Positions 169-8,360 of a DNA stretch of 8,594 nucleotides are shown piece after piece. The stretch's first letter is position 1, and each line of letters begins with the position of its first letter. The DNA is from an uncultured bacterium. Lineage in GTDB: Bacteria > CALINM01. Location: contig CALINM010000175.1 in assembly GCA_938045315.1 (NCBI GenBank), positions 1 to 8,594 on the forward strand. Direction: 5' to 3'. A program made the translations under genes and the position numbers. The notes under the pieces are model-generated. The model saw only the letters and a program-made list of their open reading frames with translations. It was not told where the DNA came from and did not search any database.

Positions 169-1785
169 TTAATTTAACTCCCCCTTTGCTTTTTTTTCAA
201 GCAAGAGCCTTTCCATTGTGATACCCGCTTGAGTAAGAAATATTTCTAAAGCGTCCGTGTCTCTAATCGGTTCTTTGTCAGGCAAATTATCACCATAAAG
301 TAAAGCAATAACTTTGCCAGCTGAAATAATTGGTGCAAAAAAAATTTCCGTTGGTTTTTGTCCTCCTAATTTCTCAAGTAATAAAAGAAAGTTTTCATCT
401 TCTATAGGTAAACCTTTAAAAGGTGTTGAGGAATTTATGATTTCTCTGAAAAATCCCCTAAGGGGTAGTGAAAGATTTTTTACCACTTTTAAAGGTTGAT
501 CTATAAATTTATCTAAACCAAATTGTCCAAGCCCCTGTAATGAATCGCTTTTTATTGCAAAAATTACTCCTCTTGGCATTATCTCACTTGCTAATCTGAG
601 AATAAGTAGTATAATTTCATTTCCTGAAGATACCTGTCCAAGTTCGGCAATCATTGATTTTAAAATAGTTAAACCTGGAGTGGTTACTATCTTACTACTA
701 TCTTCTTTTATTTCAAATTCTTCTTTTAATTCCTTATCCCAATGAGTGATCTGTGCTTTTTGAATAGAAGTCGTATCCATTTCTTTTATTGTAGCTTCAA
801 GAGTTTTAATAAAAAAACTCACCTCATCCACAATATTTTCTTTGTTAAATAATCTTCTTTTTGGTTTTTTTATGATATTGATGTTTTTTGCTCTCAATTT
901 CTCTTCTACTTCTGGCACTGAATATTCACAAAGTGCAATAATTTTAGATTCTCCCTGGTTTAAAAGTTGCTCTATAATATCCAGTCCCCCTAAAACACCA
1001 GAACCGTCTGGTTTTATAATAAAAAGTGAAACTATGGGTAAAACACATTTACCAGCATTTTTAAGGGAACTATATTTTATGAGAGCATCATTAATGTTAT
1101 CAGCGTTTTCAACCTCATAATTTTTTTCCATAAACCTTTTTGTCACGTGAACAAAAAAATTATTATCATCAATTATTAATAATACGGGTTTTGATAAAGA
1201 TTGCTCTATAATTGGTTCTTCTACTGTTTCAAGTTTTGATGTCTCTGGCTCTTTAATAATAGTTTCCAGTTGTCCTTCATCAGCAAGACGTGAACCTTCC
1301 ATGGCAAGGAATTGGGGATTGAGTCCCTTAGCTTTGGGCAAGTCATACTGTAAAAGATCGACTGTTAATTCATCTTCAACTATATCATCTATTAATTCAA
1401 ATCTAAACTCACCTTCAAGCCAGTAAAAAAGACTAAAAACAGATTTTTCAATAAGTTCAGTAACACATTCTTCTATTTTATCTTTTGGAATATTGAAATT
1501 GTTAATTAGAATCCATCCTAATTTTTGTTGTTTATTTAATGACTGTTGATATTGTAATGCTTTTTTTAAAATATCTGGAGTTACATACCCTTTATGAATC
1601 AAAAGTTCGCCCAAATTTACCCTATAGGCATCAGAATATGCTGTTACCACTTTTCCTTTATAAAAGTAAATTCTTCCTTCTCTTTTATTGCTCTTTATGT
1701 GAAGAATACCAGACTTTCCGCTAAGTGCAACAATCTGTAATATTTCTCCAAGTCCTAAATCTTCTAATCTTCCAACTAAACTCAT
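169..1785 (-). CDS. DUF4388 (PATAN-type) protein with degenerate receiver and GAF-like domains
   Basis: This is a cytoplasmic signalling protein of 538 aa, numbered from the ATG at 1785. Residues 1-150 match the DUF4388/PATAN type: it opens MSLVGRLEDLGLGEILQIV, then has GKSGILHI and GRIYFYKGKVV. After a Glu-rich linker, residues about 199-330 form a receiver fold with the acidic pair D206/D207 (LLIIDD) and the switch Lys in KKP (K307). The phospho-acceptor position is Phe (F255, in VSLFIIKPDGSG), and the usual Thr/Ser is Cys (C286). Residues about 372-532 look like a GAF-type sensor domain (TILKSMIAELG to LALLYGDNLPD-like region, then a terminal helix). No signal peptide or membrane segment is seen. 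A TTG nine bases upstream would extend the frame, but it overlaps a TATAAT element and the family usually starts MSLxG. The gene lies 59 bp after uvrC and 3 bp before the CheY-like gene. Its ligand and output are not known. Confidence 0.8.
   Translation of the reverse strand: MSLVGRLEDLGLGEILQIVALSGKSGILHIKSNKREGRIYFYKGKVVTAYSDAYRVNLGELLIHKGYVTPDILKKALQYQQSLNKQQKLGWILINNFNIPKDKIEECVTELIEKSVFSLFYWLEGEFRFELIDDIVEDELTVDLLQYDLPKAKGLNPQFLAMEGSRLADEGQLETIIKEPETSKLETVEEPIIEQSLSKPVLLIIDDNNFFVHVTKRFMEKNYEVENADNINDALIKYSSLKNAGKCVLPIVSLFIIKPDGSGVLGGLDIIEQLLNQGESKIIALCEYSVPEVEEKLRAKNINIIKKPKRRLFNKENIVDEVSFFIKTLEATIKEMDTTSIQKAQITHWDKELKEEFEIKEDSSKIVTTPGLTILKSMIAELGQVSSGNEIILLILRLASEIMPRGVIFAIKSDSLQGLGQFGLDKFIDQPLKVVKNLSLPLRGFFREIINSSTPFKGLPIEDENFLLLLEKLGGQKPTEIFFAPIISAGKVIALLYGDNLPDKEPIRDTDALEIFLTQAGITMERLLLEKKAKGELN
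178..187 (-). promoter_or_regulatory. Candidate ribosome binding site for the CheY-like gene
   Basis: Read on the minus strand this is AAAGGGGGAG, inside the last codons of the DUF4388 gene and ending 12 nt before the ATG at 165. The purine-rich GGGGGAG can pair with a CCTCC anti-Shine-Dalgarno core, although the spacing is longer than ideal. It is notable because the five other gene starts in the window show no such element. This fits an internal operon gene that needs a binding site because its transcript cannot be leaderless. Confidence 0.45.
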
Positions 1786-1793
1786 AATTGACA

Positions 1794-1799
1794 ATTATA
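1794..1799 (-). promoter_or_regulatory. Perfect -10 hexamer just ahead of the DUF4388 gene
   Basis: The minus strand reads TATAAT here, followed by 8 nt (TGTCAATT) and then the ATG at 1785. A transcript starting the usual 6-8 nt after a -10 would begin at or next to the start codon, giving a leaderless mRNA. No convincing -35 is seen. The hexamer sits between uvrC and this gene, so the regulator may be transcribed on its own as well as by read-through from uvrC. Confidence 0.45.
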
Positions 1800-1844
1800 T
1801 CTTTTAAATATTTTTTATAAAAACAAAATTTTAAATCAGCTTAT

Positions 1845-3434
1845 TTATTCAACAAAATATTTTTTTAATCTCCTTTTTAAATGCCTATTAGCAAAACGAT
1901 GAGCTTCTTCTCTTAACTTTACCAATATTTTTAATCCAGGATTATCACTTTTTAGAACCAGCGGGTTTTTTCTATTTAAAATGTAAATGGAATTTTTTTC
2001 ATCCTTCGCGATGGAAGCGATAAAGATGTCTTTTAGCTTTAACTCATCAATAACCTTTTTAGCTATGTTCAGTTGACCCTTTCCTCCATCAATTAGCAAA
2101 ATATCTGGATATTTCCATTCAATGTGATTAAACCTTCTTTTTAAGGCAGAATAAAGAGCATTATAATCATCAAAGCCCTCTTTAACATTGAAGATTCTGT
2201 AGCTATCCCTGAAAAAATCACCATTTTCATAAACTACCATAACACAGGCATTTTTTTTGCCGTATAAGTGGGTTGCGTCGAAGCACTCTATTCGCTCTGG
2301 TTTTTTAGATAGATTAAAAATGTTTTTTAGCATTAATAGACCATTTGATGTTTGTGGAGAGAAAGAAGAAGCATTAAGATTTGCCATAGCAGTTAATTGT
2401 CTGGTCTGGGTGTCGTAAGGTTTTTTAATCTTAACATTAGTCTTTTTGATGTCCTTTAAGTAGGTTTCTATGCTATTTTTTTCTTCTAAATCCATATCTA
2501 TAATGATTTCTTCTGGAAAGATTACGTTTTTTTGGTAATAACTTGTGATAAACTCCGATAATGTATTTTCGGTATCAAAGCTCTTTCTTATGGAAAAATC
2601 TTTTTTATTTATAAGTTTACCAGCCCTTACAAAAAGTAAAGAAATGTTAACAAAATCAGTGCCATCAAAAAAACCAATCACATCAAGACTTTTTAGATTA
2701 GGTCCCTGTACCCCCTGTTTCTTCATTAATTCATCTATTTGACTGATTGTATCTCTTATGAATGCTGCTTTTTCAAAATCTTCTCGTTCTGATGCAGCCC
2801 ACATTTCTTTAATAAGTATTTTTCTTACTTTTTTTATATAGCGACCTTCTAAAAATGAGATAACATTATCTAAAATTTTATTATAGGCTTGTCTTTTTTC
2901 GTCTCGGTTAATGCATGGTGCTATACATTGATTAATATGAAAGTAGAGACAGGGTTTTGTTCGTTTTGAAAAAACTTTATCGCTGCAGTGGCGGAGGGGG
3001 AAAATTTTTTGGATACATGAAATGATTTCACGAATTTTTTTTGCAGATGGGTAAGGACCGAAGTAAAGAGCATCTTTATCATCAATCTTTCTTACAAGCT
3101 CAATTTTTGGAAAATCCTTTTTTCTATCGATTTTAATGCACAGATAATTTTTGTCGTCTTTAAGCTGAATATTATATTTGGGATTATATTTTTTAATTAA
3201 ATTGTTTTCAAGAATAAGTGCTTCTTTCTCGTTATTAGTTAGAATGTATTCTATTTTTTTAACATTTTTTAAAAGAAAGCTTACTTGATATCTATTTTCT
3301 ATACCTTTAAAATATGTAAGAATTCTTTTTTTTAAATTCTTTGCTTTGCCAACATAAAGGACTTTGCTTTCCTTATCCTTCATAATATAAACACCACAGG
3401 CTGAAGGTATATTACAGAATAAGGTTGTATCCAT
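1845..3434 (-). CDS. uvrC: Excinuclease ABC subunit C, lacking the C-terminal HhH module
   Basis: UvrC makes the 3' and 5' incisions around a lesion marked by UvrB in nucleotide excision repair. Of 529 aa, residues 10-90 form the GIY-YIG nuclease domain (GVY 14-16, YVG 27-29, R37, catalytic-type E76). Cys150, 162, 170 and 174 have the same 12/8/4 spacing as the Fe-S ligand cysteines of E. coli UvrC. Residues 201-236 are the UVR motif (DFEKAAFIRDTISQID) that contacts UvrB. The RNase H-like endonuclease domain holds D386 (ECFDATH), D422/D423, D449 (LLIDGGKGQL) and H512 (EEAHRFA), so both active sites look intact. The chain ends 17 residues after H512. The helix-hairpin-helix pair that normally follows (E. 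coli UvrC is about 610 aa) is missing, and the 50 bp downstream cannot encode it. No Shine-Dalgarno is evident. It is the first gene of a possible operon with the two regulators. Confidence 0.96.
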   Translation of the reverse strand: MDTTLFCNIPSACGVYIMKDKESKVLYVGKAKNLKKRILTYFKGIENRYQVSFLLKNVKKIEYILTNNEKEALILENNLIKKYNPKYNIQLKDDKNYLCIKIDRKKDFPKIELVRKIDDKDALYFGPYPSAKKIREIISCIQKIFPLRHCSDKVFSKRTKPCLYFHINQCIAPCINRDEKRQAYNKILDNVISFLEGRYIKKVRKILIKEMWAASEREDFEKAAFIRDTISQIDELMKKQGVQGPNLKSLDVIGFFDGTDFVNISLLFVRAGKLINKKDFSIRKSFDTENTLSEFITSYYQKNVIFPEEIIIDMDLEEKNSIETYLKDIKKTNVKIKKPYDTQTRQLTAMANLNASSFSPQTSNGLLMLKNIFNLSKKPERIECFDATHLYGKKNACVMVVYENGDFFRDSYRIFNVKEGFDDYNALYSALKRRFNHIEWKYPDILLIDGGKGQLNIAKKVIDELKLKDIFIASIAKDEKNSIYILNRKNPLVLKSDNPGLKILVKLREEAHRFANRHLKRRLKKYFVE

Positions 3435-3440
3435 AATTTA

Positions 3441-3449
3441 ATAATAACA
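3441..3449 (-). promoter_or_regulatory. Extended -10 element ahead of uvrC
   Basis: On the minus strand this is TGTTATTAT, a TGn extension plus TATTAT (5 of 6 matches to TATAAT). It is followed by only 6 nt (TAAATT) before the uvrC ATG at 3434. The spacing predicts a leaderless or nearly leaderless transcript. There is no good -35 at 16-18 bp, which an extended -10 may not need. The surrounding A/T tracts (3450-3469) make chance matches likely, so confidence is moderate. Confidence 0.4.
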
Positions 3450-3481
3450 AAAAAAAATTTTAAAAAATACTGACAACTTTA

Positions 3482-3503
3482 AAACATTTATTATGTAATG
3501 TTT
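3482..3503. promoter_or_regulatory. Operator-like inverted repeat between uvrC and the SAM synthetase gene
   Basis: The perfect 7-bp arms AAACATT (3482-3488) and AATGTTT (3497-3503) are separated by 8 nt, giving a 22-bp dyad. Its downstream arm abuts or overlaps a possible -35 (TTGCTA, 3502-3507) of the metK-type gene, a position suited to a repressor. It could also influence the divergent uvrC promoter about 40 bp away. No family-specific operator is recognised, and a 7-bp dyad in 100 bp of AT-rich DNA may arise by chance. Confidence 0.35.
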
Positions 3504-3529
3504 GCTAAATGATAATTTTGTGTTAGTAT
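3502..3529 (+). promoter_or_regulatory. Candidate promoter of the SAM synthetase gene
   Basis: The -10 is TGTTAGTAT (3521-3529), with a TGn extension and TAGTAT, followed by 7 nt before the ATG at 3537. A partial -35, TTGCTA (3502-3507), lies 16 bp upstream. This would give a leaderless mRNA. An alternative promoter, CTGACA (3470-3475) with TGTAAT (3494-3499) at 18 bp spacing, scores better on consensus and would leave a leader of about 30 nt. The sequence alone does not decide between them. Confidence 0.4.
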
Positions 3530-3536
3530 TAATTCT

Positions 3537-4739
3537 ATGATCTATGTGGAGACTATTTCTGGCTATACAATGTCTGAGCAGTTTCTTGAAATTGTGGAAA
3601 GAAAAGGCAAGGGACATCCAGATACAATATGTGATTCCCTTGTTGAATCCATATCAATTGCATTAAGTGAAGAATACAAAAAATGTGTTGGAAGTATAGT
3701 ACATTTTAATATCGATAAAGCATTACTCTCTGCTGGAAAGGTGGAAAAGAGATTTGGTGGTGGTAGAGTGTTAAAGCCAGTTAAGTTTATCGTAGGTGAT
3801 CGGGCTACTTTTTTATGGGGCAATAAAAGAATTCCCATAAGGGATGTAGTTATCGAATCAACAATAAATTGGTTTAAGAAAAATTTAAGGTTTTTCGATC
3901 CAGAAAAAAATCTTGATATAGAGATAGCTCTTTCAGAAGGTTCAACCGAACTAACCAACATTTTCAGAGAAGGGAACAAAAATTTACCTGCCAATGATAC
4001 ATCAGCAGCTGTAGGCTTTTATCCTTTAACACCTGCAGAAAAGGTGGTTTTAGAATTAGAAAAATATCTTAATTCAGAAAACTACAAAACTTTGTATCCA
4101 GAAACGGGTGAAGATGTAAAAATTATGGCTATAAGAAAAGGGGATGAACTTAATTTAACAATAGCTATGCCTTTTATTGCGGAACTTATTTATTCAGAGA
4201 AAGAGTATTTTCAAAAAAAAGAAAAGGTAATGAATAGTATTAAAAAGTTTTTGAGGAAATATTCTGGGACTTTTCATATAAATGTAAGCTTTAATGCCCT
4301 TGATAAAAAGGGGCATGGGATTGATGGTGTTTATCTAACTCTTTTAGGCACTTCTCTTGAGGACGCTGATTCAGGTCAGGTTGGCAGAGGAAATAGAGCA
4401 AATGGTCTTATATCTGTAGCAAGAGCAATTGGAACTGAAGCGGTTGCAGGAAAAAACCCAGTAAGCCATGTGGGAAAAATTTATAGCGTTTTTACTCATT
4501 ATTTAGCCAAAAAAATTCATCAGAAGATTGAAGGTATAAGAGAAATCTATGTATATATGGTTAGTAAAATTGGTAAACCTGTAAATGAACCGGAGGTAGT
4601 ATCTGTTAAGATAATCCCTGAAAAAGGGATTCGATTAATGGATGTATCGGGTAAGATAACAGAACTTATCGAAAAAGAGCTTGCTGAAATGCCACATTTT
4701 TGTGATTTATTGAGTAAGGGAAAATTTTCAATTAACTAA
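3537..4739 (+). CDS. S-adenosylmethionine synthetase, archaeal type
   Basis: The predicted enzyme condenses ATP and L-methionine to S-adenosylmethionine, releasing phosphate and pyrophosphate, in the cytoplasm. The 400-aa protein matches the archaeal-type methionine adenosyltransferase family rather than bacterial MetK. Shared blocks are [16 protein letters not shown] (18-33), FGGG (73-76), a GS-x-L segment near 135, [18 protein letters not shown] (152-169), GEDVKIMA (191-198), [21 protein letters not shown] (281-292) and [16 protein letters not shown] (301-316). The length matches archaeal relatives of about 400 aa. The start is the first ATG in frame, and the family-conserved region begins about 17 residues in. 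No Shine-Dalgarno is visible. It is divergent from uvrC and convergent with uvrB, so it is a single-gene transcript. The neighbouring radical SAM enzyme is a potential consumer of the product. The placement suggests old horizontal transfer, although base composition does not stand out. Confidence 0.92.
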
Positions 4740-6733
4740 ATTTTAGTGACCGCTTTTTCTAACAAAGATTTTATCTCATCTCTAATTTTTGCAGCCCTTT
4801 CAAATTGTAAGTTTTTTGCTGCTTTTTTCATTTCCCTTTGAAGCCTTTTTATAACTTTTTCAAGAGTACTCTCATTCATATGGAAATCCTCTTTAGTTTC
4901 CTCTACTGAGATAGTGTAGTAATCTTTCTCACAAAGTATCCCAAAATCTTCATTAATATTCTTTTTAATTGTTTCTGGAGTTATATTGTTTTTTTGGTTA
5001 TATTCCAGTTGTTTTTCTCTTCTTCTCGTGGCTTCAGCGATAGCATTTTTCATGGCAGGAGTTATTTTATCAGCATAAAAAAGGACTCTTCCATTTAGAT
5101 TTCTTGCGGCTCTCCCGCAAGTTTGAATCAATGATGTTTCAGACCTCAGGAATCCTTCTTTATCAGCATCTAAAATAGCGACAAGTGCAACTTCAGGCAT
5201 GTCTAAGCCTTCGCGTAAAAGATTTATGCCCACAAGCACGTCATAATCACCCTTCCTTAGTTCCTTAATAATTTTTACTCTCTCTATTGTGTCAATATCA
5301 GAATGGAGGTATTTAGCTTTAATACCATGCGTTTGAAGATAACTTGCAAGATCTTCTGCCATTCTAATAGTAAGAGTTGTTATTAATACTCGCTCTCTTT
5401 TTGAGATTGCTTTTTTTATTTCCTTCAAGAGGTCTTCAACTTGATTTTTTGCTGGTCTAACTATAATCTCTGGATCTAACAAACCTGTTGGTCTTATAAT
5501 CTGCTCTACTAACTTATTCTTTTTTCCCAACTCGTATGGACCGGGTGTGGCAGAAACATATATAACCTGGTTTATCCTAACTTCAAACTCTTCAAACTTA
5601 AGAGGGCGATTATCTAAAGCAGAGGGCAATCTAAAGCCAAATTCAACAAGTGTTTTTTTTCTTGAATAATCACCTTCATACATACCCCTTATCTGGGGAA
5701 TTGTAAGATGAGATTCATCAATTATAAGTAGAAAATCTTTCGGGAAAAAATCGATTAAGGTAAATGGTGGTGTTCCGGGTGGTCTTCCATCTAAATGACG
5801 GGAATAATTTTCTATACCCTTACAGTATCCCATCTCTTCAAGGAGTTCTAAATCATATAATGTTCTTTGCTTTAGTCTTTGAGCTTCCAGTAGCTTATTA
5901 TTCTTCTCTAATTCTTCCAAACGGGTTTTTAGCTCCTCCCTTATCGATTTAATGGCATTTTTTAACTGTTCTTCTGGAGTAACATAATGGCTTGCAGGAT
6001 AAATATTAATTTCAGAGAGGCTTTCGTATATTTCACCTGTTAGGGGGTCGAAGGAATAAATATTTTCTACTAAATCATCAAAAAAATTTATTCTATAAGC
6101 TAATTTATCCTCATAAGCAGGGAAAATCTCAATTGTATCTCCTCTAAACCTAAAAGTACCTCTGTAAAAATCGTAGTCATTCCTCACATACTGGATCTTT
6201 ATAAGTTCATGCATAAGTTCTCTCTGGTTATAATACTCATTGACTTTTATGCATATATGCATACTACTGTAATTATTGGGTGAACCAATACCGTAGATAC
6301 ATGATACAGAAGCCACAATAATTACATCATTTCTCTCTAAAAGTGAGTATGTTGCTCTGTGTCTCAGTTTGTCTATCTCTTCGTTTATCGAAGAGTCCTT
6401 TTCAATATACAAATCTCGTTCAGGTAGATATGCTTCAGGTTGATAATAATCGTAATAACTTACGAAATACTCTACAGCATTGTCAGGAAAAAGCTCTTTA
6501 AACTCAAAAAAAAGTTGTGCAGCGAGCGTTTTGTTAGGAGCTATAATAAGAGTTGGTCTTTGAATATTTTGTATAACATGGGCCATTGTAAAAGTTTTTC
6601 CAGAACCTGTTACACCCAATAAAACTAGATGTTTGAGACCGTCTTTAATACCTTTAGTTAATTCCTCTATCGCCTGGGGTTGATCACCTTTAGGTGAAAA
6701 AGAAGATCTTAGTATGAATTTGCCCTTTTTCAT
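4736..6733 (-). CDS. uvrB: Excinuclease ABC subunit B (UvrB)
   Basis: UvrB is the helicase-like damage verifier of nucleotide excision repair: it receives lesions from UvrA and recruits UvrC. The 665-aa length is normal for the family. Visible motifs are Walker A GVTGSGKT (40-47); the beta-hairpin with Y93, Y94, Y96 and Y97, followed by [22 protein letters not shown] (141-152); the DESH box (339-342); SATPGPYE (394-401); motif [14 protein letters not shown] (502-514); and motif [11 protein letters not shown] (537-545) with arginine fingers R541 and R544. The Cys in motif VI replaces a commonly aliphatic residue. The C-terminal UVR motif (about 626-661, [13 protein letters not shown]) is the UvrC contact. 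The ATG at 6733 gives the family-typical FxLxSxFxPKGDQPxAI opening. The TAG stop overlaps the synthetase gene stop by 4 bp. uvrC lies 1.3 kb away on the same strand. Confidence 0.97.
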
Positions 6734-6741
6734 AACAAAAT

Positions 6742-6747
6742 ATTATA
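6742..6747 (-). promoter_or_regulatory. Perfect -10 hexamer just ahead of uvrB
   Basis: The minus strand reads TATAAT, then 8 nt (ATTTTGTT), then the uvrB ATG at 6733. This is the same hexamer and spacing as at the DUF4388 gene, and it predicts a leaderless uvrB mRNA. A TTAACA at 19 bp spacing is a possible but over-distant -35. On the opposite strand the overlapping TATACT (6744-6749), with TTGCCC (6720-6725) 18 bp upstream, could serve the divergent radical SAM gene, which would make the two promoters overlap. Confidence 0.5.
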
Positions 6748-6766
6748 CTATGAAAAATGTGTATCA

Positions 6767-6775
6767 TGTTAATTT
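6767..6775 (+). promoter_or_regulatory. Weak extended -10-like element ahead of the radical SAM gene
   Basis: TGTTAATTT carries a TGn extension and a TAnnnT hexamer (only the most conserved T, A and final T match), 7 nt before the ATG at 6783. It resembles the elements ahead of uvrC and the SAM synthetase gene in both form and spacing. Taken alone it would not be convincing. The competing TATACT at 6744-6749 would leave a leader of about 26 nt without a Shine-Dalgarno sequence. Confidence 0.28.
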
Positions 6776-6782
6776 TTAAAAT

Positions 6783-8360
6783 ATGAAAGTACTATTTATA
6801 CAGCCACCCATAGAAGACTTTTACACGACAAATATTAGGAACTACCCTTTAGGGCTCCTCTTTATTGCATCAAATTTAAAAGACATCTGTGATGTTAAGA
6901 TTGTAGATCTAAGAGTGGGGAGTAAAGAAATAGAGTCCCCATTTAATGAATTGAACAAGTTTTACAATAAAAGGTATTCTCCATATAAGCTATTTTCTCG
7001 ATATCAAAGATTTGGATTAAATCAGGATAGAATAAGAGATATAATTAAAAAGGAGAAACCCAAAGTAGTTGGCATATCAAATCTTTTTTGCACCTATTCT
7101 GAGGAAGCATTAGAAGTTGCTAAAATAGCAAAAGAAGTAGACGAAAAGATTATTACTGTTCTTGGTGGTAACCATCCTACATTATTTCCTGAGGACGTGT
7201 TAAAGAAAACATTTGTAGACATTGTAATAAGAGGAGAGGGGGATATACCTTTTCGAGAGTTGGTTAGAAAACTTATTAGTGGGGGAAAACTCACAAATAT
7301 AGAGGGAGTTTCTTTTAAAACTGATGGTAAATTATACCTTTCTTTACCATTTTTTAATACCTCTTGTAGCTTAAATCTCGATAGAGCATTAATCCCAAAA
7401 GAAAACTATCCCTACGGTAAAGGCTTTATAGCTCCTGTTATTACAAGTAGAGGATGTCCTTACCATTGCGATTTCTGTGGCAAACCAGAGACAAGATTTG
7501 GGTATTACCACATAGATGATGTGAAAAAAGACATTGATAAACTAATAAATCTTGGATTTGATACTATTGATATAGAAGACGATTTTTTTGACATTACCCT
7601 TCCAAGAAATATGGAAATTTTGAAATGGTTGGGGGACAAAAAAATAAGAATAACTGCAATGAACGGCATTGTACCAAAAATCAATGACAAAGCTAAAGAA
7701 ATTTTAAAATCTATAAATTTTCAGAGAATTAATCTTTCACTTGTGGATAGTAATGATGAATTAAAGGAAGAGATAAATAGAGGACATTTTAAAGAAGCTG
7801 ATACTGTATTAAATCAATTTATAAGCACTGGCATACCAATAGAGGTTCATTTTATTATCGGCTTGCCAGACCAAAGTCCTGAAGGACTAATAAATACAAT
7901 GCTATATTTAGCAGAGAAAAAAGTGCTTTTAGGACCAAGTGTTTACTACCTTGCACCGGGCAGTAAAATTTACGAAAATTATGTTAAAAAATATGGAAGA
8001 ATTGATTTTAAATTTGCCCGATCAAGTGTTCTATTTCCTGTTAATAAAAACTTTGATGTAATAGCGCTGGCTACATTTATGAGACTAACCAGATTTGTAA
8101 ATTACATAAAGTCCCTTCTTGACAAATATGGACAGGATTTTCACATAAAAGAGCTAATGAAAGTGGTGATGAACAAAAAGGAAATAGATGGTAAGATCTT
8201 AGAGACTTTGATTGAAAGAAAGACGTTTATAAGTTTCGATAAAACAAAAAAAAAGTTTTATGAAGATTATAGCAAAAAATACATAATTGAAGATTTTCTT
8301 TCCAAGCTTAGATTTATCAGGGGTTACAAGTCAGAAAATATTTGTTATTTTAAAATATAA
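6783..8360 (+). CDS. Cobalamin-binding radical SAM enzyme of unknown substrate
   Basis: The 525-aa protein has two recognisable parts. Residues 1-165 form a B12-binding Rossmann-type domain (MKVLFIQPP start, NYPLGLLFIAS, VVGISN, LGGNHPTLFPEDVL, VIRGEGDIPFREL). The DxHxxG motif of His-on B12 enzymes is absent, as in many B12 radical SAM proteins. Residues about 215-400 are the radical SAM barrel. It has the cluster motif C225-x3-C229-x2-C232 (SRGCPYHCDFCG) to bind [4Fe-4S], then IEDDFFD, NLSLVDSNDE and VHFIIGLPDQSPEG, which resemble later barrel strands. The last 120 residues (from about KFARSSVLFP) are charged, and I do not recognise them. Relatives (the BchE-like and class B methylase group) carry out methylation or ring rearrangement on lipids, antibiotics or tetrapyrroles, so a methyltransferase is a reasonable guess only. 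It is probably a single-gene transcript, divergent from uvrB. No terminator was found after the TAA. Confidence 0.87.
   Translation: MKVLFIQPPIEDFYTTNIRNYPLGLLFIASNLKDICDVKIVDLRVGSKEIESPFNELNKFYNKRYSPYKLFSRYQRFGLNQDRIRDIIKKEKPKVVGISNLFCTYSEEALEVAKIAKEVDEKIITVLGGNHPTLFPEDVLKKTFVDIVIRGEGDIPFRELVRKLISGGKLTNIEGVSFKTDGKLYLSLPFFNTSCSLNLDRALIPKENYPYGKGFIAPVITSRGCPYHCDFCGKPETRFGYYHIDDVKKDIDKLINLGFDTIDIEDDFFDITLPRNMEILKWLGDKKIRITAMNGIVPKINDKAKEILKSINFQRINLSLVDSNDELKEEINRGHFKEADTVLNQFISTGIPIEVHFIIGLPDQSPEGLINTMLYLAEKKVLLGPSVYYLAPGSKIYENYVKKYGRIDFKFARSSVLFPVNKNFDVIALATFMRLTRFVNYIKSLLDKYGQDFHIKELMKVVMNKKEIDGKILETLIERKTFISFDKTKKKFYEDYSKKYIIEDFLSKLRFIRGYKSENICYFKI

Follow-up and report, generated by a model that had tools for sequence, protein, structure and literature searches.

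In the genome of this uncultured bacterium, a minority of genes that stand first in their transcripts very probably have housekeeping (sigma-70/SigA-type) promoters set so close to the coding sequence that transcription would begin on, or no more than about 3 nt away from, the A of the ATG, giving mRNAs that are leaderless or nearly so. The window, the whole stretch of 8,594 nucleotides that was analysed, corresponds to contig C175 in an assembly of 244 contigs and 1.86 Mb with a genome GC content of 32%, and its five genes and their upstream boxes (Table 1) are members, or in one case a possible member, of this predicted class.

Genes of the window and their upstream boxes

A sequence-only reading of the window had proposed that all five genes are leaderless, with each ATG preceded at a distance of 6-8 nt by a TAnnnT hexamer and with no evident Shine-Dalgarno (SD) sequence. 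On direct reading the hexamers and spacings are as it described them, and no SD of 4 nt or more was found upstream of any of the five genes. When the boxes were scored with a promoter matrix whose training set left the window out, the four strong ones outscored 99-100% of operon-internal genes lacking an SD and 97-100% of offset decoys. The box of the radical SAM gene outscored 95% and 91%, respectively, and must be regarded as weak, as had been conceded at the outset, since an equally high score is reached by 5% of internal genes and 9% of decoys. Among single genes, the -35 element is clear for the S-adenosylmethionine (SAM) synthetase gene and dnaA, and weak for uvrC and the radical SAM gene; scanning the window with the generic sigma-70 consensus gave no excess of sites (32 versus 36 in shuffles) and was thus uninformative.

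Table 1. Genes of the window, with the promoter elements predicted upstream of them.
Feature	Positions	Strand	Remarks
DUF4388-domain gene, predicted leaderless	169..1785	-	start fixed by Pfam PF14332, which begins at residue 5
-10 TATAAT, DUF4388 gene	1794..1799	-	8 nt to ATG at 1785; hexamer and spacing same in SKW176
-35-like TTTATA, weak, DUF4388 gene	1816..1821	-	spacer 16 nt
uvrC, predicted leaderless	1845..3434	-	Pfam: GIY-YIG beginning at residue 13; UvrC domains
Extended -10 TGTTATTAT, uvrC	3441..3449	-	6 nt to ATG at 3434; same in SKW176
Archaeal-type SAM synthetase gene (metK), predicted leaderless	3537..4739	+	Pfam PF01941, residues 2-396
Extended -10 TGTTAGTAT, SAM synthetase gene	3521..3529	+	7 nt to ATG at 3537
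-35-like TTGCTA, SAM synthetase gene	3502..3507	+	spacer 16 nt; same in SKW176
uvrB, predicted leaderless	4736..6733	-	Pfam; start kept in SKW176
-10 TATAAT, uvrB	6742..6747	-	8 nt to ATG at 6733
Possible -35 TTAACA, uvrB	6767..6772	-	spacer 19 nt; overlaps radical SAM -10
B12-binding radical SAM gene, possibly leaderless	6783..8360	+	Pfam PF02310, PF04055
Extended -10-like TGTTAATTT, weak, radical SAM gene	6767..6775	+	7 nt to ATG at 6783

The start codons of the window genes can be trusted, because family profiles begin a few residues from the chosen methionine and the orthologues in the closest relative, SKW176, align from residue 1. Profiles start at residue 1-5 for SMC, Ffh, PgsA, TatB, TrmFO, SAM synthetase and DUF4388, and NCBIfam matches were obtained for DnaA, SMC, Ffh, TrmFO, TatB, PgsA and HrcA, several of these profiles beginning at residue 1-3. 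The uvrC gene of SKW176 opens with an ATGATG doublet, so that either ATG fits as its start.

Two further features of the window may be mentioned. The divergent starts of uvrB and the radical SAM gene lie 49 nt apart (window 6731-6785; 38 nt in SKW176), and as the -35-like hexamer of uvrB overlaps the -10 of its neighbour, the two promoters may be mutually exclusive. The bacterial-type MetK (PF00438) was not found in the source genome or SKW176 and is present in G002, a member of another genus of the family (assemblies about 92% complete), which suggests that the archaeal-type enzyme (PF01941) may be the sole SAM synthetase of the genus.

Genome-wide position of the TAnnnT box

The positional test covered 818 kb of the source assembly, with the window left out of the TAnnnT counts; genes were called by a coding-potential model without any upstream signal, an SD was scored at 4 nt or more, and a TAnnnT box was counted when it ended 5-8 nt before the start. 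By these measures the genome is mainly SD-led, an SD preceding 68% of operon-internal and 38% of divergently transcribed genes in the 818 kb. An intact anti-SD, GGATCACCTCCTTT, lies at the 3' end of the 16S rRNA of G002, from the same family, and a 16S gene was not found in the window's own assembly.

Among divergently transcribed genes lacking an SD, 22 of 37 carry the box, versus 7.3 ± 2.6 after dinucleotide shuffling (maximum 16) and 5.5 ± 2.6 at other offsets (maximum 11), and the peak is centred on gaps of 6-7 nt. Operon-internal genes lacking an SD show no peak (8 of 102 versus 11.6 expected), so that the division between operon-first and internal genes, fixed beforehand as the test of a genome-wide signal, came out as predicted, with the peak confined to genes in the first position of the transcript. 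The signal is weaker for genes lacking an SD that follow a same-strand neighbour at 16-60 nt (11 of 33 versus 6.2 expected) or at 61-120 nt (8 of 20 versus 3.2), and no clear peak was seen for those more than 120 nt from such a neighbour (7 of 45 versus 5.6-7.2). A promoter score of at least 5 was reached by 29% of the 154 operon-first genes lacking an SD and by 4-7% of controls. The two signals are nearly exclusive, an SD being present in 4 of 52 boxed versus 124 of 185 unboxed operon-first genes, partly because both compete for the same positions. Divergent pairs are often made up of an SD-led and a TA-led gene back to back, as at C50 32627/33381, C54 3663/4712 and C12 32851/34487 (merged contigs).

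From these proportions, some 36 genes are estimated to be leaderless or nearly so, corresponding to about 11% of operon-first genes and about 5% of all genes sampled. About half of the operon-first genes lacking an SD have no box, indicating either that a third class of SD-less but leadered genes exists too or that starts were miscalled. A de novo search for motifs of width 9 in the last 25 nt upstream of operon-first genes lacking an SD returned a residual G-rich, SD-like motif and did not recover TAnnnT. The extended form TGTTAnTnT, to which attention had been drawn in the window, is present there as described and is not general: elsewhere in the 818 kb no gene has the strict form at 5-8 nt, and it was dropped as a genome consensus. 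The more general TGnTAnnnT was found 11 times at gaps of 6-8 nt, versus about 1.3 expected.

Two control replicons were put through the same pipeline. On the Deferribacter desulfuricans megaplasmid pDF308 (25% GC), where 80% of divergent genes have an SD, the peak is absent from divergent genes (3 of 41 versus 13 expected from other offsets), and since this replicon is the more AT-rich, AT-richness alone is not the source of the signal. On pTT27 of Thermus thermophilus the known leaderless peak was recovered at 6-7 nt, demonstrating that the pipeline recognises a known case.

Promoter anatomy and conservation

In an alignment of the 55 TAnnnT boxes outside the window, the -35 region at a 17-nt spacer reads T58 T50 G30 (percent), with G at about 10% for boxes lying farther upstream of these genes. 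At least four of six matches to TTGACA were present for 38% of the boxes versus 16% and 15% in the comparisons (Fisher p 0.001), and a TGn extension precedes the box in 11 of 55 cases versus 9 of 142 control boxes, making it three times commoner (Fisher p 0.007). At the level of the population the boxes are thus accompanied by a TTGACA-like -35 lying 16-18 nt upstream of the -10, as expected of sigma-70 promoters; this partner at 17 nt, together with the TGn extension, argues that they are sigma-70-type promoters, not chance AT-rich sequence.

Gene-by-gene comparison with SKW176 and G002 showed that in the former the hexamer is kept, with a shift in spacing of at most 1 nt, in uvrB (TATAAT + 7 nt), uvrC, metK, where AATTTTGTGTTAGTATTA of the -10 is retained unaltered, the DUF4388 gene, dnaA, smc and trmFO. 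The radical SAM gene of SKW176 has TAATTT + 8 nt within a rearranged spacer, and comM falls at a contig end in SKW176 and in a different context in G002. In the more distant G002, uvrB is preceded by TAAAAT and 6 nt, and dnaA by a -35 resembling TTGAAT and by TGATAAATT with a gap of 8 nt before the ATG; the conserved layout at dnaA suggests that this mode is old in the family, not noise.

The best conserved promoter at ffh (L087, upstream of 4195) is TTGACA-17-TAAAAT, ending 13 nt before the ATG, with no SD and with a -35 of TTGACT in SKW176. A box at this distance predicts a leader of 5-7 nt, so ffh was dropped from the TA-led genes, and it suggests that leaders of this length may exist too in this genome. 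Upstream of 4736 (-) on L202, a terminator-like hairpin, GGGCGTGC-ATAA-GCACGCCC-TTTTT, directly abuts TGTTATAAT + 8 nt + ATG, leaving no space for a leader.

Transcription start and competing explanations

The arrangement most consistent with these data is a -10 TAnnnT that stops 5-8 nt short of the start codon and in most cases is accompanied by a TGn or, 16-18 nt upstream, by a degenerate TTGAC -35. From such a promoter RNA polymerase carrying the housekeeping sigma factor would initiate at or adjoining the A of the ATG; this follows from the promoter anatomy, from which the exact start is inferred. With the promoter ending at the start codon, the mRNAs would probably lack a ribosome-binding leader, and translation of such transcripts would have to proceed without an SD. 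From what is generally known of leaderless mRNAs, the 5'-terminal AUG is presumably bound by 70S ribosomes or by initiator-tRNA-primed complexes. It would be a minority mode, limited to transcript-first genes, beside a normal SD system for the remaining genes. Gaps of 5-8 nt are compatible with predicted leader lengths from 0 to 3 nt rather than exactly zero; the proposal that the five window genes are leaderless is therefore retained in this softened form for the four with strong, conserved boxes, and is weak for the radical SAM gene. Its extension to the lineage is supported by the peak, the -35 and conservation, but for a minority class in a genome that is mainly SD-led.

That the promoters are real but leave very short leaders of 1-7 nt, with initiation still leaderless-like or on AT-rich, SD-less starts, is a possible though rather unlikely reading. 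Bacterial transcription start-site choice varies by 1-3 nt, the gap is 8 nt at uvrB and the DUF4388 gene, and that of ffh reaches 13 nt. The peak, however, is centred on gaps of 6-7 nt, as for Thermus in the present analysis, and a gap of 6-7 bp is also reported for D. radiodurans, whose mRNAs are described as leaderless (PMC12340547).

It is very unlikely that transcripts start from promoters further upstream and carry SD-less leaders, the TAnnnT near the ATG being an AT-rich element of translation comparable to that of FCB-group bacteria. AT-rich non-SD signals do occur in other phyla (PMC9581028), and the unboxed half of the operon-first genes lacking an SD would suit such a model, yet the element should then also precede operon-internal genes lacking an SD, where it is absent; nor would it be expected to have a -35 partner at promoter spacing, and the close uvrB and radical SAM starts leave hardly any space for leaders in either species. 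The idea that TAnnnT simply arises near any ATG in spacers of 32% GC, making five examples meaningless, is scarcely credible: the hexamer is common (in shuffles, any 4-nt interval holds one in about 20% of genes) and the radical SAM example is within its reach, but for the class as a whole chance is already contradicted by a genome-wide peak outside the window, restricted to operon-first genes and accompanied by an enrichment of -35 and TGn, by boxes conserved across species and by the AT-richer control without a peak.

Relation to known leaderless systems

Leaderless mRNAs are best known from Deinococcus-Thermus and Actinobacteria. Zheng et al. (PMC3160421) reported TA-led genes for 207 out of 953 bacterial genomes, those of low GC showing TATAAT forms and TG peaks, and 21.6% of bacterial species are predicted by GeneMarkS-2 to have leaderless transcription, a figure quoted in PMC9581028. 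As in the present genome, Deinococcus-Thermus species have a TAnnnT ending 6-7 nt before the start, no SD at these genes and a coexisting SD class (PMC12340547; PMC3160421), but there the class takes in about one third of D. radiodurans genes and the genomes are mostly of high GC, whereas here it amounts to about 5% of genes at 32% GC, with the -35 and TGn visible. In Mycobacterium tuberculosis the TANNNT -10 is likewise placed so that the start codon coincides with the transcription start, as predicted here; a -35 consensus was not found in that species, in contrast to the degenerate TTGAC at 17 nt described above, and its leaderless fraction is larger (PMC3898074). The AT-richer TATAAT form and the TG extension before the box are shared with the low-GC TA-led genes of Firmicutes and Mycoplasma (PMC3160421), an unrelated lineage; here TGn precedes only about 20% of boxes.

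The mechanism is thus already known, and the lineage, which is phylum-level, barely sampled and represented by three genomes in the present comparison, is not among the groups found described, so that the observation is new in that respect. It may tentatively be suggested that a conserved leaderless class including dnaA, smc, uvrB and uvrC is ancestral in this AT-rich, phylum-level lineage and has been retained there, outside both Deinococcus-Thermus and Actinobacteria. One fragmented assembly suffices to test for such a class when genes are split by operon position, SD-led genes are excluded, and the -35 and conservation are checked, and gene finders that assume an SD would misplace starts in this genome. 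A deep, uncultured, AT-rich lineage would join the bacteria with (predicted) leaderless mRNAs and, if the reading is true, key replication and repair genes would be translated independently of the SD, with downstream genes of operons translated through it.
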